Source: Desulfuromonas sp.
GTDB taxonomy: Bacteria > Desulfobacterota > Desulfuromonadia > Desulfuromonadales > Geopsychrobacteraceae
DNA length: 55,590 nucleotides
NCBI GenBank assembly: GCA_002868865.1
Contig: PKUC01000045.1
Coordinates: 1-55,590, forward strand
Direction of reading: 5' to 3'
Numbering within the stretch: the stretch's first letter is position 1; every line of letters starts with the position of its first letter. The position numbers were made by a program, and so were the translations under genes. The notes below the pieces were generated by a model. It ran no database searches. It was not told the DNA's origin and saw only the letters and a list, made by a program, of their open reading frames with translations. Below are positions 31,113-48,177 of the stretch, one piece after another.

Positions 31113-32204
31113 ATGGCGGACGAAGGAAAAAAACTCAGTTTTTTAAATGTTGACCATGAAACTATTTGGGGACTGCTCAGGGTCCTTTGTAATTCGAGGG
31201 CCTCGGATCTCCTTCTGGTTGCTGGAGTCCAGCCGAGTCTCAAAATCAATAATGAACTTATGCGAATTGATGCGCCGGTGCTCACTGCTGAACTGGTTGA
31301 AACCTATGCAAGAGATTTGATGAACAAAAACCAGCTGGAGGCCTTCAAAGAAACAAAAGACATCGATTTCGCCATTACCGATGAAAATTTGGGTCGCTTC
31401 AGGATTAATATTTACAATCAGCGCAACACTATTTCTATCGCTGTGCGTCATATTGTGGAAGATATCCCTTCACTTGAAGATCTCAACCTTCCGGCGTGGC
31501 TGGAATCCTATGCGTTAAAGTCTCAAGGACTGATACTGGTCTCGGGTCCGAATGGTCATGGAAAAAGCACAACCCTCGCGTCAATGATCGACATTATCAA
31601 TACGAAGCGAAACAAAAATATCATCACCATAGAAGACCCGATCGAATTTCTGCATAGCCATAAACAGAGCAACGTGAATCAACGGGAGGTCGGTATTGAC
31701 ACTGAGTCTTTTCACACGGGACTGAGAAGAATTTACCGTGAGGCACCTGATGTTATCTTGATCGGAGAGATGCGTGACAGGGAAAGTATCTCCATTGCTC
31801 TCGAGGCGGCGGAAACCGGACATCTTGTGTTGAGTACTCTGCATGCCAACAACAGCACGTTGGCAATTAATCGTATAGTTGATGTCTTTCCCGCTGAGCA
31901 TCAGCCGCAAATTCGACTGCAGTTGGCCGACAATCTATTGTTGTCTTTCAATCAGAGGTTAATCAAAACTCGGGATGACACGGATCGTCTTCCAGCTTTC
32001 GAGAAACTGACGAATAGCTACCGCGTTTCGACGATGATTCGTGATGGGCGGTCTCATCAGATCCGCACTCGTCTAGTATCTTCAGACGAATACCATTCTC
32101 TGGATGCCAGCCTTGCGAATTTGGTCAAGCAGAACAAAGTTCATCGTGACGCTGCGCATCACTATGCACAGGATCAGAAGGTGTTTCAGGACCTTTTGCG
32201 CTGA
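31113..32204 (+). CDS. PilT/PilU-like secretion ATPase, orphan
   Basis: A 363-residue protein. The N-terminal PilT-like PAS-type domain is at about 1-110. The RecA-like ATPase has Walker A GPNGHGKST (145-153), Asp box IEDPIEF (173-179), Walker B VILIGEMRDRE (214-224) and His box TGHLVLSTLHAN (235-246). Classic PilT has GPTGSGKST, so two P-loop positions differ. The C-terminal AIRNLIR-like region is altered to STMIRDGRSHQI. AAGGAGGAGG precedes the ATG. No other pilus gene is nearby, and the gene is visibly more A+T-rich than its neighbours, which suggests acquisition. It may act with a separate pilus or have another role. Confidence 0.88.
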   Translation: MADEGKKLSFLNVDHETIWGLLRVLCNSRASDLLLVAGVQPSLKINNELMRIDAPVLTAELVETYARDLMNKNQLEAFKETKDIDFAITDENLGRFRINIYNQRNTISIAVRHIVEDIPSLEDLNLPAWLESYALKSQGLILVSGPNGHGKSTTLASMIDIINTKRNKNIITIEDPIEFLHSHKQSNVNQREVGIDTESFHTGLRRIYREAPDVILIGEMRDRESISIALEAAETGHLVLSTLHANNSTLAINRIVDVFPAEHQPQIRLQLADNLLLSFNQRLIKTRDDTDRLPAFEKLTNSYRVSTMIRDGRSHQIRTRLVSSDEYHSLDASLANLVKQNKVHRDAAHHYAQDQKVFQDLLR

Positions 32205-32219
32205 AATGCATGACATGGT

Positions 32220-35200
32220 TTATGTGAGGCTAAAAATTTCATCGAGACTGAGGTGTTTGTCGCCCTCGGTTTTGACGTAGTTTTCTATGGCTTGGAGTCG
32301 TGTGCGGATTTTTCTTTCAGCTGTTTGACGCAGGTCGGCGGCTTCTGCGGCGAGCCTCTCGCGATCACCGGCCAGGGCGTCGAGATCGTGGGGGGCGCGC
32401 TCCAGTTCCAGCCTTTTTTTGAAGAACAGCTGCAGCTGCTCAAGGGAGCCATCGCCGAAATCGAACACTTCAGGGATCAGGGCAGAAAAGCTGCGGACCC
32501 CGACGACATCCTTACCGATCGCCCGATAGGCGTCGAGCATTTCCAGCTCCATGTCGCGGTAGTTCTGCATCGGCATGTACATCCGATCGAGGTAGAGCAG
32601 GACCTTTTCGGTTTTCTTGAGATGTCCACCGATAATGACCGATGCTCCGACTTCTCCACGGCGTGCGCCTTTGATCCAGGGTGCACCGGTGATGCCGAAA
32701 TCGTTGAGCACCGGAAGCTGCAGCAAGACCGAGAGGGTATTGATCGCCAGGGCGAAGCCGGCAGAAGGGCCACCGACGTTATAAGAGGCCGACAGCAGCT
32801 GATGGTGGATGGAATATCCTTCGAGAAACTCCCCCAACATTCGTGAGATGTTACGGGTCGGCAGGATCTCCTGCAGGTAGTTTTCGACCAGGGTCAGAGC
32901 TTCTTTGGAGCTCTGGTTGGTCATCTGTACCGCCATATCCATTTCTGCGCTGCCGGGTGCGGTGGTCGAAACGGCTCCGGTGACGACGATCTTTTCCTGA
33001 TAGGTGCGGTAGACCAGCGAGGTGGCAATCGGCAACAGCACACCGCTGGTATCGTTGGCTCCGACACCGACCACAAAGCCGACCTGCGGTTCCTCCGAAA
33101 GCTCTGTCTCCAGAAATTCATCCAGCTGTTGCTTGCCTTTACGCAGCGGACTGCCCGCCAGTTGCTGACGGGCAGTCTGCAGGTGCCAGCGGGTGACCGG
33201 AAACGCCTTCTCTCCTTTGAGGTGGTGCAGCCGCTTGATGACTTCCTCCAGCCGTTCGAGCAGCGCCTCTTCCCCCTGACGTGCTTTCTTCAACAGGTCC
33301 GAATCCGCGGCGATCCCTTCCAGCAACCCGAGCAAAATCTTGTAGTTGTAACGGACGAAGCGCCCCTTGGTTTCGCTGTCGCTTGCGGTGAGCTGAAACA
33401 GCGCGTCGATGACCTCCATCTCCGTGGTCCGCAGTGAGCGGACCTTTTCGGCAAAAGCGGTAAAGTCGGCTGGAGTTTCACAGAGGGTTCGCGCGAGTTG
33501 CGTGATGTCCTCGAGGCTGAGTCCGTCCTGCAGGGGGAGATTGGCCATGTTTTTAGCGATAATCTGCACACTGTCCTCTTCGCGCAGATGTCCGGTAACG
33601 TTCAGGACCTTGAGCCGTTTGGAGCGGATCAGGGCCGGATCGAGGATGTCCAGACGGTTCGTTGTCAGTACGGTGAACACACGGTTGAGGGGCGATTCTC
33701 CATCGATAATCGACAGAAATTTGTTGGTTACCTTGTCGTAGGGGCTGCCCCCTTGGGGAGAGCGGCGCGGCGCAACCGCGTCACCTTCATCAAAAAACAC
33801 CATCGATGGTGAAATCATCTTAGCGATGTCGTAGACCCGTTCCAGATTGGCGACCATCCCCTCCAGTGGACTGTTTGGTTCGGAGAGGTCGGAGAGGTTG
33901 ACCGACAGGTCCTGCACGTCGGTGTTGTCACCCAGCCAGGCGCGCACCATAAAGGTTTTCCCCGATCCCGGCGGTCCGGTCAGGACTACGCCCTTCTCCT
34001 CGTTAATGTTGTAGAACAGGGCGTTGTTGGCCATCTCCGAAAATTCATTCTTGATGCTGCCTATATATTCCTGCCAGTCGATACCACGGTCCATCTGGCC
34101 GACGACTTTGTTGTAGAGCGAACCGTGAACATTGCGGGCCACCGATTTGAAGGCGTCGCGGACCAGCAGCTGATCGTTGAGGTAACTGCTGCTGAAGTAT
34201 CCTTTGATGCCGATGATCGAAGCGATCAGGCGGCGAACGTAGGCCGGGGTGATCTTGAGGCTGCGTTGGTGAAAGATCGGATACAGCTTTTCGACCGCTT
34301 GATCCAGTTCTTCTTCTGACAGATGGGGAGCGCGGGGCCCGTCGGGACGTTCCGGATGGTTTTTGCGACGCAACTCGAGGCAGACCACCTCGCGCAGGTT
34401 TTTGGGGTTTTCCCACATGTCGTTGATGTCGATGACCAGCCCGCGCTCAACAAAACGCCTGTAGATAGCGGCATCGAATTGCTCCGGCTGATCGGTTGTC
34501 GCGATCAGCAGGCAGTCGCGTCGGCCGTGGGCGATTTCGTCGAGGATGATATTGGCGGCGTCGACCAGGGTCGATTGCTGGCCCTGAACGCTGCTCATCT
34601 GATCGGGGCGACCGAAAGCGGAGTGGGCCTCTTCGAGGTGGCGTAAGGTCAGTCGGTTGGGGTTACCCATCGCCTTACGCAGGTAGTTGCCCGGCTCTCC
34701 CGCCCAGGCGGTTTGGTAGTCGTTGGGGGTGATCATCGCGCTATCGACCGGGATACCGGCTTCATCCATGCTCGAAATGGCCTGACTGATCCGATCGCGG
34801 AACAGATAGCGGACGATGGGCAGCCGGGAGAGGAAGCGGAGTTGTGCCCGTTTGCGCCGCTTCTCGATCCTCACTGCCAGCTCGGGATCAACCTCGGTCA
34901 GACTGCGCCAGAACGGGTGGTTGGCCATTACTTCATTTTTCTTTGACTTCAGGTCGACGACCGGCTTGACCTCGGAGTAGAAAAACACCTGCTCGATGGC
35001 TTGCTTGACCGTGGCGCTTTTACCGCTGCCGGAGTTACCGATGATCAGCAGCAGTGGGGCTCGCGGCGCCTGTGGATCATCGATATATTCCTTAAGGACG
35101 TAGGCGTGAAACAACTGTTCAAAGACCTCAAGCAGCTCCGGAGGGACATAGGTGTCGATAGTTTCCCGCTCGAGCAGGTAGCTGAGGTATTGGTGGTCGT

Positions 35201-35525
35201 GGCTGTCCAGTTCCCGCGCCAGGATCCGGTTCCAGGCGGCTTTGGCGTCCTGGGATCCGGCCGCTTTGAAGCGTTGCTGCCAGTCGTTGAGTTTGCTGGG
35301 ATCACGCAGCAGCTTAAAGTCGTTCTCCCGTGGCTTTAACAGGCGGCGCAGGCGGGTGGCAATCCGATCGATGATAGAGCGGTCCGGATCGTACTGATGC
35401 AGCTGGCGCAGCACAAAGCGCCGGGTTTCATTGCTCCAGCCGGCGATCAGTTGTTCAATCTGCTCAATCCTCTGTTCCGAGAGGCTGACGTAGATCGGAC
35501 TTCTGGTTTTACGGATGTGAGCCAT
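32220..35525 (-). CDS. tandem-AAA+ ATP-dependent protease with Lon-type catalytic domain
   Basis: A 1101-residue protein. The N-terminal helical region (1-155) precedes a first AAA+ module with Walker A GNSGSGKS (163-170) and a long insertion before LIATTDQPEQFDAAIYRRF (340-358). A second AAA+ module has GPPGSGKT (516-523), Walker B VFFDEGDAVAPRR (576-588) and a second-region-of-homology-like TTNRLDILDPALIRSKRL. Residues about 810-1025 form a Lon-type domain: GGPSAGFALAINTL (Ser921), then VIIGGHLKKTEKVLL (Lys970 or Lys971). A coiled-coil tail follows (1045-1085). No membrane span, unlike archaeal LonB. It lies 52 bases downstream of the SPFH gene on the same strand, so membrane recruitment by that protein is plausible. 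Confidence 0.88.
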   Translation of the reverse strand: MAHIRKTRSPIYVSLSEQRIEQIEQLIAGWSNETRRFVLRQLHQYDPDRSIIDRIATRLRRLLKPRENDFKLLRDPSKLNDWQQRFKAAGSQDAKAAWNRILARELDSHDHQYLSYLLERETIDTYVPPELLEVFEQLFHAYVLKEYIDDPQAPRAPLLLIIGNSGSGKSATVKQAIEQVFFYSEVKPVVDLKSKKNEVMANHPFWRSLTEVDPELAVRIEKRRKRAQLRFLSRLPIVRYLFRDRISQAISSMDEAGIPVDSAMITPNDYQTAWAGEPGNYLRKAMGNPNRLTLRHLEEAHSAFGRPDQMSSVQGQQSTLVDAANIILDEIAHGRRDCLLIATTDQPEQFDAAIYRRFVERGLVIDINDMWENPKNLREVVCLELRRKNHPERPDGPRAPHLSEEELDQAVEKLYPIFHQRSLKITPAYVRRLIASIIGIKGYFSSSYLNDQLLVRDAFKSVARNVHGSLYNKVVGQMDRGIDWQEYIGSIKNEFSEMANNALFYNINEEKGVVLTGPPGSGKTFMVRAWLGDNTDVQDLSVNLSDLSEPNSPLEGMVANLERVYDIAKMISPSMVFFDEGDAVAPRRSPQGGSPYDKVTNKFLSIIDGESPLNRVFTVLTTNRLDILDPALIRSKRLKVLNVTGHLREEDSVQIIAKNMANLPLQDGLSLEDITQLARTLCETPADFTAFAEKVRSLRTTEMEVIDALFQLTASDSETKGRFVRYNYKILLGLLEGIAADSDLLKKARQGEEALLERLEEVIKRLHHLKGEKAFPVTRWHLQTARQQLAGSPLRKGKQQLDEFLETELSEEPQVGFVVGVGANDTSGVLLPIATSLVYRTYQEKIVVTGAVSTTAPGSAEMDMAVQMTNQSSKEALTLVENYLQEILPTRNISRMLGEFLEGYSIHHQLLSASYNVGGPSAGFALAINTLSVLLQLPVLNDFGITGAPWIKGARRGEVGASVIIGGHLKKTEKVLLYLDRMYMPMQNYRDMELEMLDAYRAIGKDVVGVRSFSALIPEVFDFGDGSLEQLQLFFKKRLELERAPHDLDALAGDRERLAAEAADLRQTAERKIRTRLQAIENYVKTEGDKHLSLDEIFSLT

Positions 35526-35577
35526 CGGACTCCCCGGACAGTGGTTGAGCCGGTGCCGGCAGAGTCAGCGGCACGCT

Positions 35578-36456
35578 TTAATTGGTATTGTTGAGAACAA
35601 AGGTATTCTGGCCCTGCTGGTTTTTCTGATAGGCCGCGGCCCATTTCTGCTGGTTGAGGAAGTCGAACAGCGCCGGCGTCTCACGGTTACCCAGTTTGAG
35701 GGTGCCGCGCAGGCTGTTGATCGATTCACTGTAGGCCGCGTAAAGTTTTCGGGTGCGGCTGGCTTCGAGGTCGGCGGCGTAGTTTTCGGCTTCGGCGATC
35801 AGCTCGCGGCGCTTCTTCTCTTCACTGGCTTCGGCGAGTTTTTCGCCGTAACGGGTGTCACGCAGCACAAACGAGACTATGCGGATGCCGTATTTCTCTT
35901 CGAGGGTCGGACCTCCTCTGTTGAGAGGGTGATCCTTGAGGGTCAGGTAGATATCTTCCTTGATGCGGACCCGATCGGAGACCAGCTCGTTGATGGTCTC
36001 GCTCTGCATGACATCCTTGACGATCCCGTCAAAATCGTTCTGCAGCAGGGTCTGTGGCGAGCGGTTCTCTATCCCCCAGCGGTCCAGATCGTCGATGCGA
36101 TAGGTGAGCATGGCGCTGGTCCAGAGGGCGACGTTGCCCTGTGACATGATCCGCTGAGGCTGGTCGCTGGAACCGAGATGCAGCTCCTGGTTCATCAGCG
36201 GCACTTCCAGTTCGAGGCGGGTGAATAGCGGCAGGCGGATATGCCAGCCGACGCGGGTGATGGCGACCCGTTCCCCTGATAGGGTTTCGAGGATCACCGC
36301 GTAGTTGCGTCTGACCTTGTAGATGGTTTTGCTGGCGTAGAGGAGGGCGACCGAGCTGTAGACCAGAAGGACGATCATGACGGTGACGAGTCCGCGTTTG
36401 AAAAGGGCTTTGAGGCGGGCTCTATGCAACAGGCTGGAGCTGGTTTCTTCGGTCAC
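35578..36456 (-). CDS. membrane-anchored SPFH/Band 7 protein, third paralogue
   Basis: I start it at GTG 36456, six bases after GGAGG; the frame extends to 36504 without a ribosome site. This gives 292 residues: one N-terminal span (about 22-42, VTVMIVLLVYSSVALLYA), then an SPFH domain (RRNYAVILETLSGERVAI, VGWHIRLPLF) and a Glu/Ala/Lys-rich coiled coil (EEKKRRELIAEAENYAADLE). The order is that of HflC/prohibitin-like proteins. It precedes the Lon-like protease gene in the same operon and is divergent from hflK-hflC, making three SPFH genes in 3.3 kb. Confidence 0.88.
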   Translation of the reverse strand: MTEETSSSLLHRARLKALFKRGLVTVMIVLLVYSSVALLYASKTIYKVRRNYAVILETLSGERVAITRVGWHIRLPLFTRLELEVPLMNQELHLGSSDQPQRIMSQGNVALWTSAMLTYRIDDLDRWGIENRSPQTLLQNDFDGIVKDVMQSETINELVSDRVRIKEDIYLTLKDHPLNRGGPTLEEKYGIRIVSFVLRDTRYGEKLAEASEEKKRRELIAEAENYAADLEASRTRKLYAAYSESINSLRGTLKLGNRETPALFDFLNQQKWAAAYQKNQQGQNTFVLNNTN

Positions 36457-36822
36457 GGGACACCTCCGGTCGGGCTGGCGGCAGAAGAGCGTTGCGCATG
36501 TCAAAGAATAGATACAGGTTAGTTCATTAAAGATAGCAGGTTTTGTTGGCTGTGCAGGAGACCTGCGGATGGGAACTTGAAATGCGGTACGCGGTCGGTA
36601 AACTTACATCGCAGGGTCAAAGGCACATTGAAGTAACGATCAACCGGTACAGGGGGCGGTTGGGTGATTTCCGAACCACCGCCCCGGTCGTTTTGCACGG
36701 GCGGTTCTTTTTGGTGCGAAAAACTGCTATGGTTCTGAATCGCTTGGTCCTTCTTCGCGATCGGCGGTAATGGTGCTGCTGGTTTTCGCGGTGAGGGCGG
36801 CTGAATAAATGAGAGGTGACGA
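36457..36822. other. divergent control region between the SPFH-protease operon and hflKC
   Basis: About 366 bases with no convincing gene. It holds the ribosome site of the leftward SPFH gene and, toward hflK, three complementary segments that can form alternative hairpins (listed separately). I could not place a good promoter for either direction; TTGACA on the minus strand (36489-36484) lacks a -10 partner. A 75-codon plus-strand frame at 36543-36770 has no support. Confidence 0.5.
36653..36712 (+). promoter_or_regulatory. possible attenuator in the hflK leader
   Basis: GGGGCGGT (36653-36660), ACCGCCCC (36678-36685) and GGGCGGT (36699-36705) can pair as 1-2 or as 2-3. The 2-3 hairpin is followed by TCTTTTT (36706-36712), as in an intrinsic terminator; the 1-2 hairpin would prevent it. 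It lies 110 bases before the hflK ATG, where a plus-strand terminator makes sense only for a transcript starting in the same intergenic region. Confidence 0.4.
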
Positions 36823-37851
36823 ATGCAGGACTGGGGACAAGGACCCACCGGGGAAGACCTGGAAAAAAAGGTAATTGAGATCAAGGACCATCTGAAAAAT
36901 AAGTACGGTCCGCAAAAAGGAATATTGCCCACACTGATTGTGGTTCTGTTGGTAATCCTGGCAGGGTACAGCAGCTTTTATGAAGTGGACACCGAAGAGA
37001 CCGGCGTGGTACTGCGCTTTGGCGAGTTTTCCAGCTATTCGGAGCCTGGCCTGCATTTCAAGATGCCGTTCGGTATCGATCAGGTCTATCTGGTCCAGAC
37101 CGGGCGGGTTCTTAAGGAAGAGTTCGGCTACCGAACGGTTCAGCCTGGGGTGCGTTCAACCTACTCCGACCGCGGTTTTGAAGAGGAGTCCCTGACCTTG
37201 ACCGGGGATCTCAATGTCAGTGATGTTGAATGGATTGTTCAGTTTCAGGTCGCGGATCCTTATAAATTTATCTTCAACATCAAAGACCCCGTCGGGACGA
37301 TCCGCGATATCTGCGAAGCGATGGTTCGCAAAGCGATTGGCAATGCCAACGTGACTCAAGTATTGACCACGGAGAGGGCTCAACTGGCCAGTGACATCGA
37401 ACAGAATCTGCAGGAGACTCTTAACCAGTACGATATCGGTGTGCGGATTGTGACGGTGAAGTTTCAGGATGTCACGCCACCCGATCCGGTCAAGGATGCG
37501 TTTAACGAAGTCAACGAATCCGAGCAGCAGAAAGAGAGTCTTATTTTTCAGGCCCGCGAACAGTTTAATCGTGAAGTCCCCAAGGCCCGCGGTGAAGCGA
37601 AAAAGGCGCTGCAAGAAGCCCAGGGCTATGCCGTCGAACGGATCAACAAAGCCCGCGGCGAGACCGATCGTTTTCTGGCTCTACTGACGGAGTACAAAAA
37701 GGCTCCGGAAGTCACGCGTCGCCGTATCCATCTGGAAACCCTCGAGGAAATCTTACCCCGGCTGGACGAAGCCTACATCATCGATCCTCAAGGGGGAAGC
37801 CTGCTGCCATTGCTTCCTTTACGTAAAGCGACCGAAGGAGGCCTGAAATGA
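36823..37851 (+). CDS. hflK: HflK-like SPFH protein
   Basis: A 342-residue protein with N-in membrane anchor (34-53, LPTLIVVLLVILAGYSSFY). The SPFH domain begins YEVDTEETGVVLRFGEF and continues EPGLHFKMPFGIDQVYLVQTG. A coiled coil follows (EQQKESLIFQAREQFNREVPKARGE). HflK with HflC forms a large cage around FtsH in E. coli and modulates its proteolysis. The gene overlaps hflC by 4 bases. The usual hfq-hflX neighbourhood is absent; instead a divergent SPFH-protease operon is next door. Confidence 0.93.
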   Translation: MQDWGQGPTGEDLEKKVIEIKDHLKNKYGPQKGILPTLIVVLLVILAGYSSFYEVDTEETGVVLRFGEFSSYSEPGLHFKMPFGIDQVYLVQTGRVLKEEFGYRTVQPGVRSTYSDRGFEEESLTLTGDLNVSDVEWIVQFQVADPYKFIFNIKDPVGTIRDICEAMVRKAIGNANVTQVLTTERAQLASDIEQNLQETLNQYDIGVRIVTVKFQDVTPPDPVKDAFNEVNESEQQKESLIFQAREQFNREVPKARGEAKKALQEAQGYAVERINKARGETDRFLALLTEYKKAPEVTRRRIHLETLEEILPRLDEAYIIDPQGGSLLPLLPLRKATEGGLK

Positions 37852-38777
37852 AAAAAACACTGCTGATTCTGATCGTTTTTGCAGCGATCATCGTTGCCCG
37901 TGGGGGGTTGTATGTGGTCAATGAGGCGGAACAGGCGATCGTTACCCAATTCGGTAAGCCGATTGGGGACGTGAGTACGCCCGGTCTGCATTTCAAGCTG
38001 CCCTTTGTTCAGAAGGTGACCCGTTTCGAGAAGAGGATCTTGAAGTGGGATGGCGACCCGAACCAGATTCCGACTAAAGATAAACGATTCATCTGGGTCG
38101 ATACGACGGCGCGTTGGCGGATTACTGACCCGTTGCTGTTTTATAAAACCGTTGCTAGCGTACGAGGTGCTCAGAGCCGTCTCGATGACATTATCGATTC
38201 AGTAGTGCGCGATGCCGTGTCTGGCCGTTTGCTGGTCGAGTTAGTGCGCGGTAGTGATTATCAAGCCGAGGAGGCAACAGAAGAGCATTTTGAGGTTGAG
38301 GGTGTTGAAATTTCCAAAGAGGATCTGGTTGGACGTGAGGAGATTCTTCTCAGTATGCTGGATAAGGCACAGGCCAGTACTCCGGAATACGGGATTGAAC
38401 TGCTCGACGTACAGATCAAGCGGATCAACTATGTCGAACAGGTCCGCACCCGGGTTTACGAGCGGATGATTAACGAGCGGAAGAAAGTCGCGGCCGAATA
38501 CCGCTCGGAAGGTGAAGGTGAAAAAGCTGAAATTCTCGGTGAGATGGAACGGACTCTGAAAGAGATCAGTTCTGAAGCCTACCGTGAAGCGCTTGAAATC
38601 CGCGGTGCGGCCGATGCTGAAGCCGCAGCGATCTATGCTGAAGCCTACAACCAGGATGAAGAGTTTTACGCGTTTTTGCGAACCCTAGAATCTTACAAAA
38701 AGTCGATTCGCAGCAACGGTAAGCTGGTGATCGGCACCGACTCCGACTATTACCGTTATCTGAAAAAAGCCAACTGA
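37848..38777 (+). CDS. hflC: HflC-like SPFH protein
   Basis: A 309-residue partner of HflK. Membrane anchor at residues 4-20 (TLLILIVFAAIIVARG), SPFH domain starting LYVVNEAEQAIVTQFGKP, TPGLHFKLPFVQKVTRFEKR, then VQIKRINYVEQVRTRVYERM and a long coiled coil with EGEGEKAEILGEME and AAAIYAEAYNQDEEFYAFLR, all standard for HflC. It overlaps hflK by 4 bases (ATGA). A strong inverted repeat follows the stop codon. Confidence 0.95.
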   Translation: MKKTLLILIVFAAIIVARGGLYVVNEAEQAIVTQFGKPIGDVSTPGLHFKLPFVQKVTRFEKRILKWDGDPNQIPTKDKRFIWVDTTARWRITDPLLFYKTVASVRGAQSRLDDIIDSVVRDAVSGRLLVELVRGSDYQAEEATEEHFEVEGVEISKEDLVGREEILLSMLDKAQASTPEYGIELLDVQIKRINYVEQVRTRVYERMINERKKVAAEYRSEGEGEKAEILGEMERTLKEISSEAYREALEIRGAADAEAAAIYAEAYNQDEEFYAFLRTLESYKKSIRSNGKLVIGTDSDYYRYLKKAN

Positions 38778-39021: not shown

Positions 39022-42000
39022 ATGTTATCATCAGGGAGAGGTTTTATTGTCGTGGATGCGGGGATTCTTACAGCTTTTTTTGCCAGAAGACATGACGCCT
39101 GGCGGGCGTTACGTAAAATCGATACCAAAGATTTTCAGCGGTTGCTGCTGATTCATAAGTCCGAGACGGGGCAGATTTCTGTTGAGAACCGTTTGTTGGG
39201 CTCCCGTCTGTGGCGCGCTCTGCAATTCTGCGTTCTGTTCCTGTTGCTGCTCGGTGTCCCGTTCGCGGTACTGGACTCTTTCGGGATCATTTCTCCTTCA
39301 CCGCTTCTTTTTTACGGCCTGATGCTCATGTTTGCAGGTAGCGGCGCACTGGTGGGGTGGGGACGTTTTTGCCGTAGAACCTCCGGGGAAAGAACAGATA
39401 TCTGCTCATCGTATGCCCGGAGCCTGTTACCGGGGGAATCCCTTCTCTTGATAGAGGCTCCGGTCGATGTCATGGCGCGATCGATCGAGATCGTTCGCGA
39501 ACAGGCTGATCAGCTTCCGAGCATTTTTGTGCAGCACCCCTCCTTGGAAAAACGTGAGGTCGGTCGCGAAGCCTGGGTGGCCCTGTCGCGAGATCAGATC
39601 AGCGAACGGGCCCTGTTTCAGGCGATTGACCATCATCAGCTGCCCCGTCAGCAACAGAAGAAAACAGAGCTGCTGAAACGTTTGAAAGGCAGCAGGGGCT
39701 GGATCCATGAAATCTGCTGCGATCTGGCCGAAGCCTGTCGATTGGAACAGGGAACGTCGCCGGTGGCTGAGTGGATTATCGACAATGAATTCGTGGTGGC
39801 GGAGACGGTTCGCGATGTTCTGCAGAATCTTCCGCCACGCTACTGTCGCGAGCTGCCAACCATTTCCAGCGATCCCTATTTGGAGGGGTTACCTTTGGTC
39901 TACGGGCTGGCCAAAGAGCTGGTCGCCGATACCGAACTGCGCCTCAACCGCGAGAACATCCTCTCCTTTCTCACCAGTTATCAGTCGGTCAGGGTGCTTT
40001 CCACCGCTGAATTATGGGCCGTGCCGCAGATGCTCAGGATTGCTCTGGTGGAGAGTATTCAGTCGATCGCCATCAGCGCACATTCCGATCTGCGTCGCCG
40101 TCAGCTCGCCGCGCTCTGGGCCAATCGCCTGATCGCTGCTGAGCGTCAATTCCCCGAGCAAATTCCGACCCTGTTGAACGATCTGTCAGCGAGCGACCCC
40201 AGTGTCTACTTCTGCACCCAGTTGATCGATCACCTTTACGACGAAGAAGCGCTACTGATTCATGTAGAGCGCTGGATTGAACAAATTCTGGAGCAGCCGC
40301 TCAATGTCTGTACTGTGCGTGAGCAGAACCGGCAGACGAAGGCTCAGATTTCCATTTCCAACGCCTTTACCAGTCTGCGCCATCTAACCCAGTTTGACTG
40401 GAGAGACATTTTTGAGCAGGTCAACCGGATCGAACAGGTGTTGCGCTTTGATCCCGCTGGCGTTTACGCGCGGATGGATTTTGTCACCCGAGATCGCTAC
40501 CGTAGCGTGGTGGAGACCTTGGCGCGGCGAACAGGTCAGCCGGAAGAAGATGTCGCTCACAGCGCTGTCGAGTTGGCGAATCAGGCGGTCGAAGCGGGTT
40601 GCGTCGACGAGCGCGCTGAGCATATCGGTACCTATCTGATTGGCGATTCCCAGTGCGAGCTGGCCGACCGGGTGCAGTGTCAGGAACCTCTCTGTTGCCG
40701 GGCGAGACGCTGGGCAGAACACCATCACGGGGGCCTCTATCTTGTCTCCATCGGCTTGTTAACCCTCTTTTTTCTCGGTAGCCTTTTCTGGCTGGGCCGT
40801 GTTGGTCTTCACACCGGCCCTTTGACGCTACTGCTGTTGACTCTTCTGGGGGCGATTCCCGCCAGTCAGATGGCTATCCAGGTCACCAATTTCTGTGTGA
40901 CCCGCCTGCTGTCGCCGCAGATCCTTCCCAAGATGGATTTCGAAGAGACCGGCATCCCCGACGAATTCCGTACGCTGGTGGTGGTGCCGACCTTGCTGGT
41001 CGATCCGCAGATGCTGCAGAAAGAGATCGAAAAGCTGGAAATTCGTTATATGGCGAACCGTGAAGACAATCTCGTTTTCGGGCTCTTGACCGATTTCACC
41101 GATGCCGCCACACAGAGCGTTCCCGAAGATGGGCCACTTTTATTGTCAGCGGTTGCTGCCATTGAGCGGTTGAATCAGCGCCACGGGGCCGGCCGGTTTT
41201 TGCTGTTTCATCGTGAGCGTGTCTGGAGCGACAGCGAGCATGCCTTTATCGGTCGTGAACGTAAACGGGGCAAACTGGAAGAGTTGAATCGTCTGCTGAT
41301 CGATCCGACCGCCGAAGAGCATCGCCGTCTGATCCATGCCGGAGATCCCGCCGCGATTGCGGGGGTCCGTTTTGTCATCACCCTCGACAGTGATACTCAA
41401 TTGCCCCATGGAACCGCGCGACGGATGATCGAAACCCTCGCCCATCCTCTGAATCGACCCCGCCTCGACAACGAGGGGGGTGTTCTGCCGGGTGGCTATA
41501 CCATTATTCAACCGCGCGTCAGCCCTTCTCTGGCGACGACGGGTGAATCCAGTTACAGTCGTTTTTTTGCCGACGCGGTCGGGGTCGATCCCTACACCAA
41601 GGTGGTCTCTGACGTCTATCAGGACCTCAGCGGACAGGGTTCCTACCATGGTAAGGGAATCTATGACGTGCAGCTGTTTTCCAGCGTGCTCGACGGGCAT
41701 TTCCCCGAAGAAAGGATTCTCAGCCACGATCTGATAGAAGGTGAGTATGTCCGCGTCGGGTTGGCCACGGATATTGAATTATATGACGAATTTCCCACCA
41801 GTTATCAAGGTGATAGCGGTCGTTTGCATCGGTGGATGCGGGGTGATTGGCAGATCGCGCAGTGGCTCTTTCCGACGGTTCCTTCGTCCGGAGGGAGGAG
41901 GGTCGCCAACCGATTGAGCCTGTTCAGCCGCTGGAAAATCTTTGACAACCTGCGCCGCAGCCTGCTGCCGGTGACAAGTGTCGGTTTTTTGCTGACGACA

Positions 42001-45000
42001 TGGTGCGTTGATCCGCGGCTCGGTCTGGTCGCCAGTCTGGCGATCGGAACGCAGGTGTTTTTTCATCCGCTGGCGCAATTACACGCCATCGTCACCAGCC
42101 GCGCCGGTCTCAAAAGCTTTTCCCCCGAGAGAATGGGACATAATCTGCTGCGGGCAGCGGTGGACGCTGCACTGATGCCGCATCAGGCGATCATGTCGGT
42201 CGATGCGATAGTACGCGCCTGGTACCGGTGTCATATCTCTCATCGCTACCTTCTGCAGTGGAAATCGGCGCAGCTCAATACCAGTGGTTCGGCGATCTTT
42301 GCCATCTACCTTTTTGCCGTCAGTCCGTTAGGGCTGCTGGCGATGGTTCTGGTTTATGGCGTCAGCGCGTTCAGCCTGCCCGCCGCCCTGCCGTATTTTA
42401 TGTTGTGGATCTTCTCGCCGCTGATTGTCTGGCTGCTGAGCCGTCAGCCACTGCCCCGCGAAACAATTACCCCTCTGGTTGAGAAGGACCAGCGCTATCT
42501 GCGTACTGTGGCTCGGCGGACCTGGCGCTACTTCTCTGACTTTGTCGATGACAGAACCCACTGGCTGCCTCCGGATAATTATCAGGTGTCCCATCAGGAT
42601 CAACTGGCGATGCGGACCAGCCCGACCAACATCGGCCTATGGATGCTGAGTCTGCAGGCGGCACGTGATGCCGGCTATGTGTCTGCGGATCGGGTTGTCG
42701 ACAGGCTGACCCGTACGCTGGACACCATCGATCGTCTGGAACGTTATGAAGGACATCTGCTGAACTGGTACGACATCGAGACCCTCCAGCCGCTGGAACC
42801 CCGCTATGTCTCCTCGGTGGACAGCGGCAATCTGCTCGGTTCGCTGTGGACTCTCGAGCACGGTCTTGTCGAGCTGCTTACGCGCCCGCTGGTTGACGAC
42901 ACCCTCCTGTCCGGACTGTGGGAGACTGTTCGTATCTTCCTGGATGACGAGAAGGCAGCTTTAGACAACGACACGGTTGCATCCTTCAAACAGCTTCTGG
43001 CGCGCTGTGACAGCCCCTGCAACGATGGTGCACAGCGATTGAGTCTCTTTGCTGACTGTTGTCAACTGCTCCAACAGCAGGAGGATCAGACCGATGAAGG
43101 CTGGTCCGGACAACTCAAGGAGCAGGTCGCCGATTGGAGGATGTCGCTCGATCGTTATCTTGGCTGGTACAAGCATCTGACCGCTCCTGCAGAAAATGTT
43201 GCAGGCTGGGACGATGAGGTGCTGGCGCAGCTGGAGTGGTCCCGCTGTTCAGAACTGTCGCTTCAGCAGTTGCAGGATGAAAATCTGCCCATCCTCAAAC
43301 AGCTGCATGAGCTGAAAAAACAGCCCAGACTTTTTTCCGCACAACAGGAAGTGATCGATATGGTGCTGGCGGAACTCGGTGCGGCGCAGCGCGCGGCCCG
43401 GGAGACGATGTCACAGGTTCAAGTGCTGATCGACAGGGTGCATGCCCTGGCGGCGGCAATCAATATGGGCTTTTTGTACAGTGACGAACGCAAACTGTTC
43501 GCGATCGGCTACAACGTCTCGGCCAATCGTCTCGATAACGCCTTTTACGACCTGCTCGCCAGTGAGTCCCGCTTCGGGAGCTTTGTGGCTATTGCCCGCG
43601 GTGAAGTACCGATGGAGCACTGGTTCTCTCTCGGTCGACCCTACGGCAAGATCGGTTACAGGCGGGCTCTGCTCAGTTGGACCGGGACCATGTTTGAATA
43701 CCTGATGCCGGTGATTTTTCAGCGCTCCTACGATAATTCCCTGCTCGATCGGGCGATTCGTCAGGCGGTCGGTGAGCAGATTAATTATGCGCGCCGACAT
43801 CGTATCCCGTGGGGGATGTCTGAATCGGCCTACGGCGATTTGGACCTGAATAAAACCTATCAGTACAAAGCGTTCGGGGTGCCAACCCTGGGACTTAAAC
43901 GGGTGCTGAAGAACAAACATGTCGTGGCTCCTTACGCCAGCCTGTTGGCGGTGTCGATTGCACCCGGCCTGGTGGTTCAAAACCTGCGCCGCCTCGATCA
44001 GCTCGGGATGCTGAAGACCTACGGGTTTTACGAGTCGATCGACTTCAGCCGACGCGATGATCCCGGTGGAGAGCGTGCCGTGGTGATCAAGGCCTATATG
44101 GCTCATCATCAGGGTATGGGCTTTCTCGCGCTGGTGAATTTTCTCCACGACGAACCTCTGCTGCGCCGTTTTCATGCCGACTCCCGTGTGCGGGCGTTCG
44201 AGCTCCTTTTACAGGAGCGGGTGCCGACCCTGCCGCCACTGCATCTTATTTCTACCCGTGAATCGGTGACCAAAATTGCCGCTGTTGGTGAACTGTCACC
44301 GACAGCGTACACCTTCGAGTCTCCTGATACGCCTATCCCGAAATCACAGTTTCTCAGTAATGGCCGCTATGATCTGATGATCACCAACTCGGGCAGCGGC
44401 TACAGCCAGTGGGGGGGCAGCGAACTGACGCGCTGGCGCGTCGATAGAATCTGTGAACAGGGTGGTATCTACTGCTATATTCATGATCAGGATGCCGATA
44501 CGTTGTGGTCCAATACTTACCTGCCGGTCACCACTGGCGGTGATAACTACAGGGTTGAATTCCCCCTTGACCGCGCGGTGTTTCAGCGTGAGGAGCACGG
44601 TATACAAACCGAAACGGTGGTGGTGGTCTCCCCCGAGGACGATGTCGAGATCCGCCGACTGACACTTGTGAACCGGTCTTCACGTCGCCGTCGCTTGCGC
44701 CTGACCAGCTATGTCGAGCTGTCTATGGCGCCGCACCGGGCCGATCTGCAACACCCGGCGTTCAACAAGATGTTCATCGAAACCGAGGCGATTCCGGACA
44801 GTAACTCGTTGCTTGCACACCGCCGGCCGCGCAGCGACGACGCACAGCCGCTCTATCTGGCTCATCGGCTGACCTGTGATCAGGGTGATGATCTGCCGTT
44901 TAATTACGAAACTGACCGGCGGACATTTATCGGTCGTGGACAGACTCTGGCCGATCCGCAGGGCAGCAGGGCGACCCTCGAAGACAGTCAGGGTTTTGTG

Positions 45001-48000
45001 CTGGATCCGGTTCTGAGTCTGCGGCGTGATGTGATTCTTGAACCTCATCAGCATCTCCGTTTGAGCCTGATCGTCGCTACGGGGGAGAAACGGGATCAGG
45101 TCCTGCAGTTGATGACCAAGTACGGCGAGGATTACGCGATCGAGCGGGCCCTCGATTTTGTCTGGCGGGCGTCCCAGATCGAATTGCGGATGCTTCACAT
45201 TCAGCCCCACGAAGCGCGTCGTTTCCGCCAGTTGGCAGATCATCTGCTGTTTCCCAACACGCTGCTGCGGGCTCCCGCCGCAATCCTCGCTGAGAACAAC
45301 CGAGGGCAGTCCGCCCTGTGGCCCTACGGGATTTCCGGAGATCTGCCGATTATTCTCACCTCCATCGGTAAGGTGCGCGATATTGGTCTGGTCCGACAAC
45401 TTTTGCAGGCGCAGGCGTACTGGCTGCGGCACGGACTGATCGTCGATCTGGTGATTTTAAATGAAGAATCGGGCAGCTACGACGAACCGTTGAGGGAGCG
45501 CCTGCTGAATCTTATTCAGGCGCACGCTATGTTCATCGGCCGTGAGCGCGCCGGTGGGGTCTTCCTGCGCAGCGTTGATCAACTCCCGGAAGAAGACATC
45601 CGCCTGTTCAAGTCGGTCGCCAGCGTAGTGCTGGTGGCTGCACGGGGAACTCTCGCTCAGCAGCTTGGGGCCACGCGAACCCTGCCCGAACTTCCAGAAC
45701 GGCTCGAAACTGGTGGAGATAGTGACAGTGCCGACATCGAACTGCCGCTTGCCGACCTTGAGCTGGTACTGGAGAACGGTGTTGGCGGGTTCAGCACCGA
45801 TGGCCGCGAGTATGTTGTGACCCTTGAACCGGGAGTCCATACCCCGGCGCCCTGGGTCAACGTGATGGCCAACCCCGATTTCGGTGCGCTGGTCAGCGAA
45901 AGCGGTGCCGGGTTCTGCTGGTTCGGTAACAGCCAGAGAAACAGGTTGACCGGGTGGTCAAACGATCCGGTGCTCGATCCCGCGACCGATGTCATCTATC
46001 TCCGTGATGAAGAGAATGGGCAGTTCTGGACCCCGACGGCGGCACCGCTGCGGTCCGATGACACGTACAGGGTGCGCCATGGTATCGGCTATTCCCTGTT
46101 TGAGCACAACAGCCATGGGATCGAGCAGACCCTGACCCGTTTTGTTCCCAACGATACACGGGGAGGCGATCCGCTCTGCGTGCAGTTGGTTTCTCTGACC
46201 AATCGCACCAACCGCCGTCGCTCCCTGAGCCTGACCTCTTATGCGGAACTGGTCCTCGGTGAAAATCGCGAAACCTCGCAGATGCATGTTCTGACCCGGT
46301 GGGACGAAGATGTCGACGCGTTGCTGGCTTGGAACCGCTATCACCCTGATTACGCCGACCGGGTCACGTTTGTGGCCACCAGTCATCCGGTGCGCTCCCA
46401 CTGTGGTGATCGCAGCTGTTTTGTCGGGCGGCACCGCACCCTGTCCGATCCGCTGGCGATGCATTTGAGCCGGTTGGCCTGTCAATCAGGCGCAGGTCTG
46501 GACCCGTGCGCGGCGCTGCAGGTCGAAGTGGTCTTGCAACCGCAACATCAGCAGACGGTTGCGGTCTTTATCGGTCAGGCCGATTCGATCGCTCAGGCGC
46601 GTGCCCTGATCCGCAAATATCAAAAAGTTGATGTCTGCCAATCGGCCTTGGAGGAGACCCGCGACTGGTGGGCGCAACAGCTCGGCGGCATCGAGGTGAA
46701 GACGCCTGACCCCGCGGCCGATCTTCTGATCAATCGCTGGTTGTTGTATCAGAGTCTCAGCTGCCGGATATGGGGGCGTTCGGCGGTCTACCAGTCCGGC
46801 GGTGCTTTCGGGTACCGCGATCAGCTTCAGGATGTCATGGCGTTTCTCTACACGACGCCGGATGTGGCCAGAGAGCAGATCCGTCTTGCCGCCAGTCGTC
46901 AGTTCCGTGAAGGGGATGTCCAGCACTGGTGGCATCCGCCGACCGGTGCTGGGATCCGCTCGCGTATCTCAGACGATCTGCTCTGGCTGCCGTTTGTGGT
47001 GGCCCAGTACGTCCGTGTGACCGGTGACGACAGCCTGCTGCGCGAAGAGGCCTCGTTTCTTAATGCGCCGGAGTTGGCGGCCGATCAGCATGAAGTATTT
47101 GCCGTGCCCGATGTTGCGCTGGATGCCGGCACAATCTATGAGCATTGCCGGCGTGCGGTGGCCAAAGGGCTGACCCGTGGCGCTATGGGATTGCCACTGA
47201 TCGGCACCGGAGATTGGAATGACGGGATGAATCTGGTGGGTGCCCAAGGGCGGGGAGAGAGTGTCTGGCTGGCGTGGTTTCTGGTGGATGTACTGCAGGG
47301 AATGATCGAACTGGCCGAACAGGTGAATGATGAGGAAACTAGGGCAGAATACAGACGCGAACGACAGCGTATCATTGCTGCTATCGAGGAGAACGGCTGG
47401 GACGGTGGCTGGTATCTGCGTGGCACCTTCGACGACGGCAGTCTGCTAGGATCGAGCAGATGCGTCGAGGCGAAGATCGATTCGCTGCCGCAGAGCTGGG
47501 CCTGGCTGAGCGGCGCTGCGGACAGTCAACGGGCCGGACAGGCCCTCGATGCCGCCTGGGCGGCGCTGGTTCGCGAGGATGAGAAGATTGTCCAGTTGTT
47601 CGACCCGCCGTTCAATCGCTCTACCCCTTCTCCGGGATATATTAAGGGGTACCCGCCGGGGGTCCGTGAAAATGGCGGACAGTATACTCACGCGGCTCTC
47701 TGGTTTGCCATGGCACTGGCCCGGCGTGGCGATGGTGAGCGGGCGGTTGATCTGCTGACGATGCTGAATCCACTCAATCACACCCGCGATCAACAGGGAG
47801 TGTGGCGCTACGGGGTCGAGCCCTACGCGGTTGCAGCCGATGTCTATCGTTTACCCGGACGGGTCGGGCAGGGGGGCTGGTCGTGGTATACTGGGTCTGC
47901 GGCCTGGATGTATCGGGCGTGGATTGAAGAGGTTCTCGGCCTGAAGATTCGTGGAAAACAGATGTGGCTCGATCCGGTTATCCCTGCAGACTGGCCGGGG

Positions 48001-48177
48001 TTCTCCATCCGCTACAAGCGTGATGGCAGTGTGTACCAGATCGACGTGGACAATCCCCACCGGGTCGGACGGGGCGTGTCTTCAGTTGAGGTGGATGGCG
48101 TATTGCAGCCTGACGCCGTGGTTCCGCTGAAGAGGGGCGCAGGTGTCTGCCGGGTGATCGTACAGATGGGCAGCTGA
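39022..48177 (+). CDS. ndvB: cyclic beta-1,2-glucan synthase-like protein (NdvB type)
   Basis: A single 3051-residue frame. Membrane segments near 66-112, 573-630 and 985-1140 frame a glycosyltransferase family 84-type domain with DSDTQLPHG (about 788-797). A glucoamylase-like domain follows near 1470-1730 (GSFVAIARGEVPMEHWFSLG, RIPWGMSESAYG, AYMAHHQGMGFLAL). The C-terminal GH94-type phosphorylase half (about 2300-3040) has GYRDQLQDVMAFLY, RSRISDDLLWLPF and GTGDWNDGMN (about 2728-2737). Family members build, trim and cyclise periplasmic beta-1,2-glucans from UDP-glucose. The start may instead be GTG 39052, ten bases after GGGAGAGG. No frameshift is visible. Sits alone after hflC. Confidence 0.93.
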   Translation: MLSSGRGFIVVDAGILTAFFARRHDAWRALRKIDTKDFQRLLLIHKSETGQISVENRLLGSRLWRALQFCVLFLLLLGVPFAVLDSFGIISPSPLLFYGLMLMFAGSGALVGWGRFCRRTSGERTDICSSYARSLLPGESLLLIEAPVDVMARSIEIVREQADQLPSIFVQHPSLEKREVGREAWVALSRDQISERALFQAIDHHQLPRQQQKKTELLKRLKGSRGWIHEICCDLAEACRLEQGTSPVAEWIIDNEFVVAETVRDVLQNLPPRYCRELPTISSDPYLEGLPLVYGLAKELVADTELRLNRENILSFLTSYQSVRVLSTAELWAVPQMLRIALVESIQSIAISAHSDLRRRQLAALWANRLIAAERQFPEQIPTLLNDLSASDPSVYFCTQLIDHLYDEEALLIHVERWIEQILEQPLNVCTVREQNRQTKAQISISNAFTSLRHLTQFDWRDIFEQVNRIEQVLRFDPAGVYARMDFVTRDRYRSVVETLARRTGQPEEDVAHSAVELANQAVEAGCVDERAEHIGTYLIGDSQCELADRVQCQEPLCCRARRWAEHHHGGLYLVSIGLLTLFFLGSLFWLGRVGLHTGPLTLLLLTLLGAIPASQMAIQVTNFCVTRLLSPQILPKMDFEETGIPDEFRTLVVVPTLLVDPQMLQKEIEKLEIRYMANREDNLVFGLLTDFTDAATQSVPEDGPLLLSAVAAIERLNQRHGAGRFLLFHRERVWSDSEHAFIGRERKRGKLEELNRLLIDPTAEEHRRLIHAGDPAAIAGVRFVITLDSDTQLPHGTARRMIETLAHPLNRPRLDNEGGVLPGGYTIIQPRVSPSLATTGESSYSRFFADAVGVDPYTKVVSDVYQDLSGQGSYHGKGIYDVQLFSSVLDGHFPEERILSHDLIEGEYVRVGLATDIELYDEFPTSYQGDSGRLHRWMRGDWQIAQWLFPTVPSSGGRRVANRLSLFSRWKIFDNLRRSLLPVTSVGFLLTTWCVDPRLGLVASLAIGTQVFFHPLAQLHAIVTSRAGLKSFSPERMGHNLLRAAVDAALMPHQAIMSVDAIVRAWYRCHISHRYLLQWKSAQLNTSGSAIFAIYLFAVSPLGLLAMVLVYGVSAFSLPAALPYFMLWIFSPLIVWLLSRQPLPRETITPLVEKDQRYLRTVARRTWRYFSDFVDDRTHWLPPDNYQVSHQDQLAMRTSPTNIGLWMLSLQAARDAGYVSADRVVDRLTRTLDTIDRLERYEGHLLNWYDIETLQPLEPRYVSSVDSGNLLGSLWTLEHGLVELLTRPLVDDTLLSGLWETVRIFLDDEKAALDNDTVASFKQLLARCDSPCNDGAQRLSLFADCCQLLQQQEDQTDEGWSGQLKEQVADWRMSLDRYLGWYKHLTAPAENVAGWDDEVLAQLEWSRCSELSLQQLQDENLPILKQLHELKKQPRLFSAQQEVIDMVLAELGAAQRAARETMSQVQVLIDRVHALAAAINMGFLYSDERKLFAIGYNVSANRLDNAFYDLLASESRFGSFVAIARGEVPMEHWFSLGRPYGKIGYRRALLSWTGTMFEYLMPVIFQRSYDNSLLDRAIRQAVGEQINYARRHRIPWGMSESAYGDLDLNKTYQYKAFGVPTLGLKRVLKNKHVVAPYASLLAVSIAPGLVVQNLRRLDQLGMLKTYGFYESIDFSRRDDPGGERAVVIKAYMAHHQGMGFLALVNFLHDEPLLRRFHADSRVRAFELLLQERVPTLPPLHLISTRESVTKIAAVGELSPTAYTFESPDTPIPKSQFLSNGRYDLMITNSGSGYSQWGGSELTRWRVDRICEQGGIYCYIHDQDADTLWSNTYLPVTTGGDNYRVEFPLDRAVFQREEHGIQTETVVVVSPEDDVEIRRLTLVNRSSRRRRLRLTSYVELSMAPHRADLQHPAFNKMFIETEAIPDSNSLLAHRRPRSDDAQPLYLAHRLTCDQGDDLPFNYETDRRTFIGRGQTLADPQGSRATLEDSQGFVLDPVLSLRRDVILEPHQHLRLSLIVATGEKRDQVLQLMTKYGEDYAIERALDFVWRASQIELRMLHIQPHEARRFRQLADHLLFPNTLLRAPAAILAENNRGQSALWPYGISGDLPIILTSIGKVRDIGLVRQLLQAQAYWLRHGLIVDLVILNEESGSYDEPLRERLLNLIQAHAMFIGRERAGGVFLRSVDQLPEEDIRLFKSVASVVLVAARGTLAQQLGATRTLPELPERLETGGDSDSADIELPLADLELVLENGVGGFSTDGREYVVTLEPGVHTPAPWVNVMANPDFGALVSESGAGFCWFGNSQRNRLTGWSNDPVLDPATDVIYLRDEENGQFWTPTAAPLRSDDTYRVRHGIGYSLFEHNSHGIEQTLTRFVPNDTRGGDPLCVQLVSLTNRTNRRRSLSLTSYAELVLGENRETSQMHVLTRWDEDVDALLAWNRYHPDYADRVTFVATSHPVRSHCGDRSCFVGRHRTLSDPLAMHLSRLACQSGAGLDPCAALQVEVVLQPQHQQTVAVFIGQADSIAQARALIRKYQKVDVCQSALEETRDWWAQQLGGIEVKTPDPAADLLINRWLLYQSLSCRIWGRSAVYQSGGAFGYRDQLQDVMAFLYTTPDVAREQIRLAASRQFREGDVQHWWHPPTGAGIRSRISDDLLWLPFVVAQYVRVTGDDSLLREEASFLNAPELAADQHEVFAVPDVALDAGTIYEHCRRAVAKGLTRGAMGLPLIGTGDWNDGMNLVGAQGRGESVWLAWFLVDVLQGMIELAEQVNDEETRAEYRRERQRIIAAIEENGWDGGWYLRGTFDDGSLLGSSRCVEAKIDSLPQSWAWLSGAADSQRAGQALDAAWAALVREDEKIVQLFDPPFNRSTPSPGYIKGYPPGVRENGGQYTHAALWFAMALARRGDGERAVDLLTMLNPLNHTRDQQGVWRYGVEPYAVAADVYRLPGRVGQGGWSWYTGSAAWMYRAWIEEVLGLKIRGKQMWLDPVIPADWPGFSIRYKRDGSVYQIDVDNPHRVGRGVSSVEVDGVLQPDAVVPLKRGAGVCRVIVQMGS

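Follow-up and report, generated by a model that had tools for sequence, protein, structure and literature searches.

INTRODUCTION

AAA proteases of the FtsH type are known to partner with SPFH scaffolds. Here we describe a gene pair in which an SPFH protein, SPFH3, is encoded next to LonSP, a predicted ATP-dependent protease of a different catalytic type. The pair lies in a stretch of 55,590 nucleotides (nt) from Desulfuromonas sp. (assembly GCA_002868865.1, contig PKUC01000045.1, positions 1 to 55,590), which was analysed as a whole and is called the window throughout.

Among the closest described systems is HflK/HflC–FtsH, in which an SPFH membrane protein is likewise tied to an ATP-dependent protease. 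As described in excerpts of PMC12048511, FtsH is a zinc peptidase anchored in the membrane; it has a single AAA module and contacts HflK through a periplasmic domain. LonSP, in contrast, is of the Ser/Lys type, carries two AAA domains and has no membrane span as judged by hydropathy, while SPFH3 is a single SPFH protein scoring below the cut-offs of both hflK and hflC. A previous reading of the window, made from the sequence only, had drawn the analogy with HflKC–FtsH. It holds for the link between an SPFH protein and a protease, but not for the mode of contact, since LonSP has no periplasmic domain.

With Lon (MEROPS S16: LonA, LonB, LonC and LonBA), LonSP shares a homologous peptidase domain, an A-type 'GPSAG' site and a Ser/Lys dyad. 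It differs in the spacing of this dyad and in having two AAA domains, the second of which (D2) is classical, whereas Lon has one module of the HCLR clade; moreover, it has no membrane anchor, a feature limited to LonB and LonBA among the Lons covered in excerpts of PMC9569914. The tandem AAA domains recall p97/VCP–Cdc48, by sequence for D2 and by fold and a pore-loop region for the first domain (D1). Unlike p97, however, LonSP has its own peptidase domain, an SPFH partner and no p97 N-domain among its listed Pfam families. Finally, the stomatin-type SPFH1b gene is also found in an operon with a serine-protease gene, that of NfeD1b, which carries a ClpP-type protease domain and is not an AAA protease (excerpts of PMC2636767); NfeD was found in none of the eight neighbour open reading frames (ORFs) scanned here. 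Searches of the open-licence literature aimed at the pair or its protease brought up no paper which, by its title and abstract opening, assigns an SPFH partner to a protease that is p97-like or has a Lon domain; this absence is weak evidence. SPFH3–LonSP is an apparently undescribed, conserved member of the SPFH–AAA-protease kind, with an unusual combination of motor and peptidase.

RESULTS

SPFH3 and LonSP are a conserved gene pair

SPFH3 lies directly upstream of LonSP, on the same strand, in 59 of 62 LonSP loci, and the remaining three stop at a contig border before it. Not counted among the 62 were L003, a second cut of the window locus, and L030–L034, which encode FtsH-like AAA proteins (tblastn <200 bits). 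Among the 43 of the 59 loci that are non-redundant, as judged by identical residues 101–300, the gap between the two genes is 37–218 nt with a median of 61 nt (some genomes of the surveys below are the same assemblies as counted loci). The gap is 52 nt in the window, and no terminator-like site was found in it on the coding strand. LonSP sequences with identities to that of the window as low as 51% keep the same arrangement.

The two genes also occur together. The genome survey was confined to the window's own phylum, where the same 11 of 395 genomes (its own included) carry LonSP and SPFH3, adjacent in all 11. The other 384 carry neither at the thresholds used (E ≤ 1e-30 for LonSP and E ≤ 1e-20 for the SPFH3 profile), which are strict and would miss divergent unpaired copies. 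A contig scan, performed with single-query patterns and reaching close relatives only, gave 28 loci, one of which, L062 on a 3.3-kb contig, is labelled Archangium. The sequence-only reading had placed the SPFH and protease genes in one operon, and its idea of a joint machine was to be given up if they were not neighbours in related genomes. Apart from the three contig ends, no such locus was encountered, and the search for co-occurrence across genomes that it had suggested gave a concordant result. The pairing of SPFH3 with LonSP is beyond chance.

Pairwise distances of LonSP and of SPFH3 correlate at 0.965 (41 pairs), but shared descent alone yields such a correlation. In trees of the 41 pairs (LonSP >1000 and SPFH3 >250 amino acids, three near-identical rows, L046, L063 and L064, included), 16 of the 22 LonSP splits with support of at least 0.9 recur for SPFH3, and one supported SPFH3 split conflicts. 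Alignments A1, A2, A3, A5 and A6 contained 26, 26, 22, 21 and 20 sequences, respectively. The distribution of LonSP is patchy: 25 of the 60 relatives, a count that takes in fragments and the window's own genome, carry it, and it was not found in G001 (96% complete), the sole other genome listed as of the same genus. Joint gain or loss of the pair would fit this patchiness better than independent histories.

No third conserved partner was found: ORF clusters other than the pair are common to at most 11 of 38 loci and, eight neighbour ORFs having been scanned with Pfam, rarer partners are possible. Judged from where it lies, the largest of these clusters represents a shadow ORF on the strand facing SPFH3 in loci rich in GC; in some rows of this comparison, shadow ORFs stand in for the genes of the pair themselves. 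Upstream of SPFH3, strict patterns for sigma-32-like or sigma-54 promoters matched in none of 26 sequences and a loose one in two. The gene directly after LonSP encodes Hsp20 in L043 (positions 6479–6925, Pfam) and in L046 (around 11401, tblastn), and a further Hsp20 gene is located about 1.4 kb downstream of LonSP in L048 (around 9318).

LonSP carries two AAA domains and a Lon-related peptidase domain, as judged by sequence

Pfam Lon_C matches residues 804–953 of LonSP with 23.3 bits (cut-off 21.1), and all 26 members match at E 0.01. Ser921, which lies in GGPSAG, and Lys971, which lies in GGxxxK, are both invariant in 41/41 long LonSP sequences and align with the segments that carry the dyad in LonB peptidase domains of solved structure. 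When the peptidase domain was compared with the genome's own Lons, hhalign gave a probability of 96.1, and hmmsearch with this domain retrieved archaeal Lon peptidase structures (E 1.9e-6). The distance from Ser to Lys is however altered: 50 positions (49 residues between) in 22/22 LonSP domains against 43 (42 residues between) in the two canonical Lons of the genome. Exactly 42 residues separate the two in LonA and LonB, according to excerpts of PMC9569914. In the 395 phylum genomes, the peptidase-domain profile scored 466–492 bits in 11 genomes, while 24 further genomes passed E 1e-6 at no more than 35.5 bits, the gap between 35.5 and 466 being empty. In a survey of serine proteases of prokaryotes from 2008, the excerpted text names LON-AAA-Lon_C and several other Lon_C combinations, none of these with two AAA domains (PMC2605481). 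By its sequence, the LonSP peptidase domain is a Lon-related, divergent S16 domain with an intact catalytic dyad.

Upstream of this domain, Pfam placed an AAA domain at residues 513–639 (E 3.4e-26) and an AAA_16 P-loop region at 144–178. NCBIfam CDC48, PAN and FtsH models matched around residues 510–690, far below their curated cut-offs: the best, the CDC48 family TIGR01243, reached 76.9 bits against 802.65, and the Lon model TIGR00763 scored 33.4 bits against 608. Each of these Pfam and NCBIfam matches spans just part of the protein. A profile of 26 LonSP sequences matched VCP/Cdc48 chains with an E of about 1e-45, and most strongly over residues 500–701, which correspond to D2. Walker A (517–524), Walker B, sensor-1 Asn623 and Arg634/Arg637 of D2 are kept in 26/26 sequences, the sensor and Arg motifs, like the pore loop considered below, being sought where we presume them to lie. 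As judged from these matches, D2 clearly belongs to the classical AAA clade (p97/Cdc48).

D1 has a Walker A (163–170) and a Walker-B-like segment, both conserved, and its residues 273–281 read A[W/F/L][A/S]GEPGN[Y/F/R]. The D1 profile matched the pore-loop region of Cdc48 D1 weakly (whole-sequence E 7e-4, single stretch 0.14). In VIA-align 2, D1 aligned with p97 N-D1, FtsH-like and proteasomal ATPase chains with Z around 17–18 and a root-mean-square deviation (rmsd) of 3.2–4.0. We regard D1 as an AAA domain, probably of p97-like nature given its fold and the weak sequence match. The label of Lon-type tandem-AAA+ protease given to LonSP previously is thus appropriate for the peptidase domain and for the presence of two AAA domains, but not for the motor, D2 being of the p97/Cdc48 kind.

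The same reading had described the protease as having no membrane span of its own, with which hydropathy, the only criterion applied, agrees: no convincing span was found, and the highest 19-residue mean (1.76) falls within the peptidase domain. Neither a Cdc48-type N-domain nor the M41 zinc peptidase nor the LON N-domain was among the 15 Pfam families listed as matching LonSP at E 0.01. In L061, from a metagenome-assembled genome (MAG), the LonSP match switches reading frame at 8141–8183, by a real frameshift or an assembly error.

SPFH3 is an SPFH protein distinct from HflK and HflC

SPFH3 scores 55.5 bits with Pfam Band_7 (cut-off 23.6), and only 18.0 and 18.9 bits with the hflK and hflC equivalogs, for which the cut-offs are 159.4 and 134.4 bits. 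Its listed TTG start (36504) is probably wrong. Since many relatives begin at an equivalent GTG or ATG, we placed the start at the GTG at 36456, which gives 292 amino acids. A structural model of SPFH3, with a mean predicted local distance difference test (pLDDT) of 76.1, matches HflK/C, stomatin, prohibitin, QmcA and erlin. The fold is that of SPFH proteins known to build cages.

The membrane helix of SPFH3 is flanked by basic residues on both sides in 26/26 sequences, with on average 5.3 K+R before and 3.7 after it and almost no acidic residue. This is unlike HflK and HflC of the same order, in which acidic residues after the helix equal or outnumber basic ones in 10/10 usable frames (two of 12, one each from L112 and L114, were dropped for a misplaced helix). 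It is also unlike eight stomatin- or QmcA-like proteins, which have 0–4 basic residues before the helix. According to excerpts of PMC2636767, HflK/C lie on the periplasmic side and QmcA (YbbK) on the cytoplasmic side.

Genomic context of the pair

The genome comprises 2.66 Mb in 109 contigs, and the four ORFs of the locus sit where the sequence-only reading had placed them (Table 1). Both hflK and hflC run divergently to the SPFH3–LonSP pair, hflK being 366 nt from SPFH3, and both pass their NCBIfam equivalog cut-offs (hflK, TIGR01933, 275.6 against 159.4 bits; hflC, TIGR01932, 280.7 against 134.4 bits). Three of the four Band_7 places of the genome are at this locus. Its two canonical Lon proteases are both encoded elsewhere, and LonSP is therefore additional to Lon.

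Table 1. Genes of the SPFH3–LonSP locus and predicted domains of LonSP (positions in the window)
Feature	Position	Strand	LonSP residues	Description
LonSP	32220..35525	-		1101-aa predicted ATP-dependent protease
LonSP N-domain			~1-125	
LonSP D1 (AAA)	34191..35168	-	~120-445	p97-D1-like '[W/F/L][A/S]GEPGN' pore-loop region
LonSP D2 (classical AAA)	33390..34118	-	~470-712	Walker A/B, sensor-1
LonSP S16 (Lon-type) peptidase domain	32436..33200	-	~776-1030	Ser921, Lys971 invariant
LonSP C-tail				variable
SPFH3	35578..36456	-		292-aa SPFH (Band_7) protein, one N-terminal membrane helix
hflK	36823..37851	+		neighbour, outside conserved unit
hflC	37848..38777	+		neighbour, outside conserved unit

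Scans of the window for RNA families (at the gathering score), tRNA and tmRNA found none. A PilT/PilU-type ATPase gene (31113–32204) beside LonSP has a G+C content of 0.46, against 0.575 for LonSP. On the other side, an ORF of 3051 amino acids (39022–48177) has no NCBIfam match at E 0.01; we take it to resemble a cyclic beta-glucan synthase (NdvB-like). Elsewhere in the assembly, a truncated HflK-like gene at a contig end (G000 contig 102, positions 1–333, L004) may be a second hflK, and an FtsH-like AAA gene is located on the same contig.

HflKC is not part of the conserved unit

HflKC is found near the pair in the window and in L041 and L050, 2.5–5 kb upstream in the latter two. Among the 15 loci whose upstream flank reaches at least 5 kb, HflC occurs in that flank in only two, to which the window is to be added; these two loci are from Malonomonas, with HflC on the same strand and not divergent. 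Ten of the 25 LonSP-carrying relatives, including the one-contig G005, listed as 100% complete, have no HflC over the cut-off, nor does any of the ten have HflK over the cut-off; three of them (G030, G034 and G036) are MAGs of 70–76% completeness. LonSP is carried by 10/15 genomes without HflC and by 15/45 with it (Fisher p 0.03), an association that comes mostly from one genus and is not claimed as an effect.

In view of these ten relatives and of the 13 flanks without HflC, HflKC was rejected as a member of the unit. Since some genomes have the pair and no HflKC, mixing between the two is dispensable, and the earlier suggestion that the pair might mix with HflKC is not supported. In its partial favour, other SPFH genes recur within about 7 kb of the pair in the window's own family. 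L039, L040, L051 and L053 (partly L037) have a different SPFH pair, located upstream of a rhomboid-protease gene, and the same rhomboid-protease gene follows HflKC in L041 and L050. However, no other SPFH or rhomboid genes were found within about 7 kb in L035 and L058 of the same family, nor in eight loci of other families, for which flank lengths vary.

The SPFH pair of L039 (197–1231 and 1231–2331, both on the minus strand) consists of one protein with an N-terminal hydrophobic helix and another with a lipobox-like N-terminus (LSGC). An SPFH lipoprotein, as this N-terminus implies, would be unusual. Pairs of this type are from a genus whose sampled LonSP carriers have neither HflK nor HflC over the cut-off.

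DISCUSSION

We propose, with a probability of about 0.55, that SPFH3 and LonSP are the two obligate components of one membrane protease, SPFH3 serving to bring LonSP to the inner membrane. In such a putative complex, SPFH3 would oligomerise in the inner membrane and hold LonSP there. LonSP would form a hexameric double ring like that of p97, whose D1 and D2 would unfold substrates and pass them into a peptidase ring at the C-terminal end of the protein. Membrane or membrane-associated proteins could in this way be extracted and degraded, and the machine would work independently of HflKC–FtsH. SPFH3 may contact LonSP through its basic N-terminal tail, should its SPFH domain be periplasmic, or through that domain itself, should it be cytoplasmic.

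Several observations weigh against this proposal. The aromatic pore-loop residue of D2 is absent at its expected place. Both p97 stretches matched by the whole LonSP profile, in single-sequence alignments, correspond to D2, aligned with either p97 AAA domain. The model of whole LonSP has a mean pLDDT of 64.5 and is poor over D2 and the peptidase domain; Foldseek aligned it with p97/Cdc48 over 600–760 columns, but with a query-normalised template modelling (TM) score below 0.2, and VIA rows covering both D1 and D2 have rmsd values of 13–20. With such TM and rmsd values, the ring-to-ring arrangement stays a prediction only. Moreover, the charge pattern of SPFH3, unlike that of both groups compared, makes the membrane side of its SPFH domain ambiguous. 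Should this domain be periplasmic, cytoplasmic LonSP could not sit in an SPFH3 cage, and just the short N-terminal tail of SPFH3 would be left for contact.

The two proteins might alternatively be a functional pair without a stable complex, LonSP being a soluble quality-control protease and SPFH3 its regulator, its adaptor or its main substrate, for example as a membrane-stress sensor kept at its level by LonSP. The lack of a membrane span and the Hsp20 genes directly after LonSP in L043 and L046 are in keeping with this, and strict linkage suits regulator–protease pairs as well as complexes. SPFH3 and LonSP evolve at about the same rate, which does not discriminate between the two readings. 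However, in the best studied case, HflKC–FtsH, the AAA protease and its SPFH partner are joined in a large complex (excerpts of PMC12048511), and we consider the absence of a complex unlikely here, though well worth keeping in mind.

LonSP could also be chiefly a p97-like motor for extraction at the membrane, its peptidase being secondary or serving self-processing. The p97-like ATPase part, the altered Ser–Lys spacing and the low scores of the peptidase profile (at most 35.5 bits) with the frames of about 800 residues of other phylum genomes, presumably canonical Lons, point in this direction. Nevertheless, Ser921 and Lys971 do not vary in sequences down to 51% identity, nor does much of the domain around them, and a subordinate role of the peptidase appears improbable.

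Co-assembly of SPFH3 with HflK/HflC, so that LonSP and FtsH would share one cage, is suggested by the divergent neighbours in the window, by HflKC upstream in L041 and L050 and by the different SPFH pair that occupies a similar place in another genus. Against this stand the LonSP carriers devoid of both HflC and HflK over the cut-off and the scarcity of HflC in long upstream flanks, and we judge such a mixed machine very improbable.

IetAS, composed of an AAA ATPase and a serine protease, is a defence system. By analogy, LonSP and SPFH3 might serve in anti-phage defence, and PADLOC IetA models match the D2 AAA domain of LonSP (best E 1.9e-11), but such a role would be most surprising: the match is confined to that domain (IteA_antiphage, 33.2 bits against a cut-off of 510), none of the 467 plasmid records with a match covers 80% of LonSP, viral contigs encode no relative, mobile-element genes are 0/8 among the neighbour ORFs scanned, and the LonSP and SPFH3 gene trees largely agree.

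SPFH3–LonSP may further represent ATP-dependent proteases of a class of their own, in which a p97-type double-ring unfoldase that contains a Lon-type peptidase chamber would be tethered to the inner membrane by a dedicated SPFH scaffold; we put this forward tentatively, at somewhat less than even odds. LonSP would then be a self-compartmentalised p97-like degradation machine, one polypeptide doing in bacteria, independently of HflKC–FtsH, the work of p97 and the proteasome in the extraction and degradation of eukaryotic membrane proteins. The strict pairing of an SPFH protein with another catalytic class and motor type would show that the SPFH–protease partnership is modular, and the pair would be a natural setting in which to study how an SPFH scaffold serves a protease.

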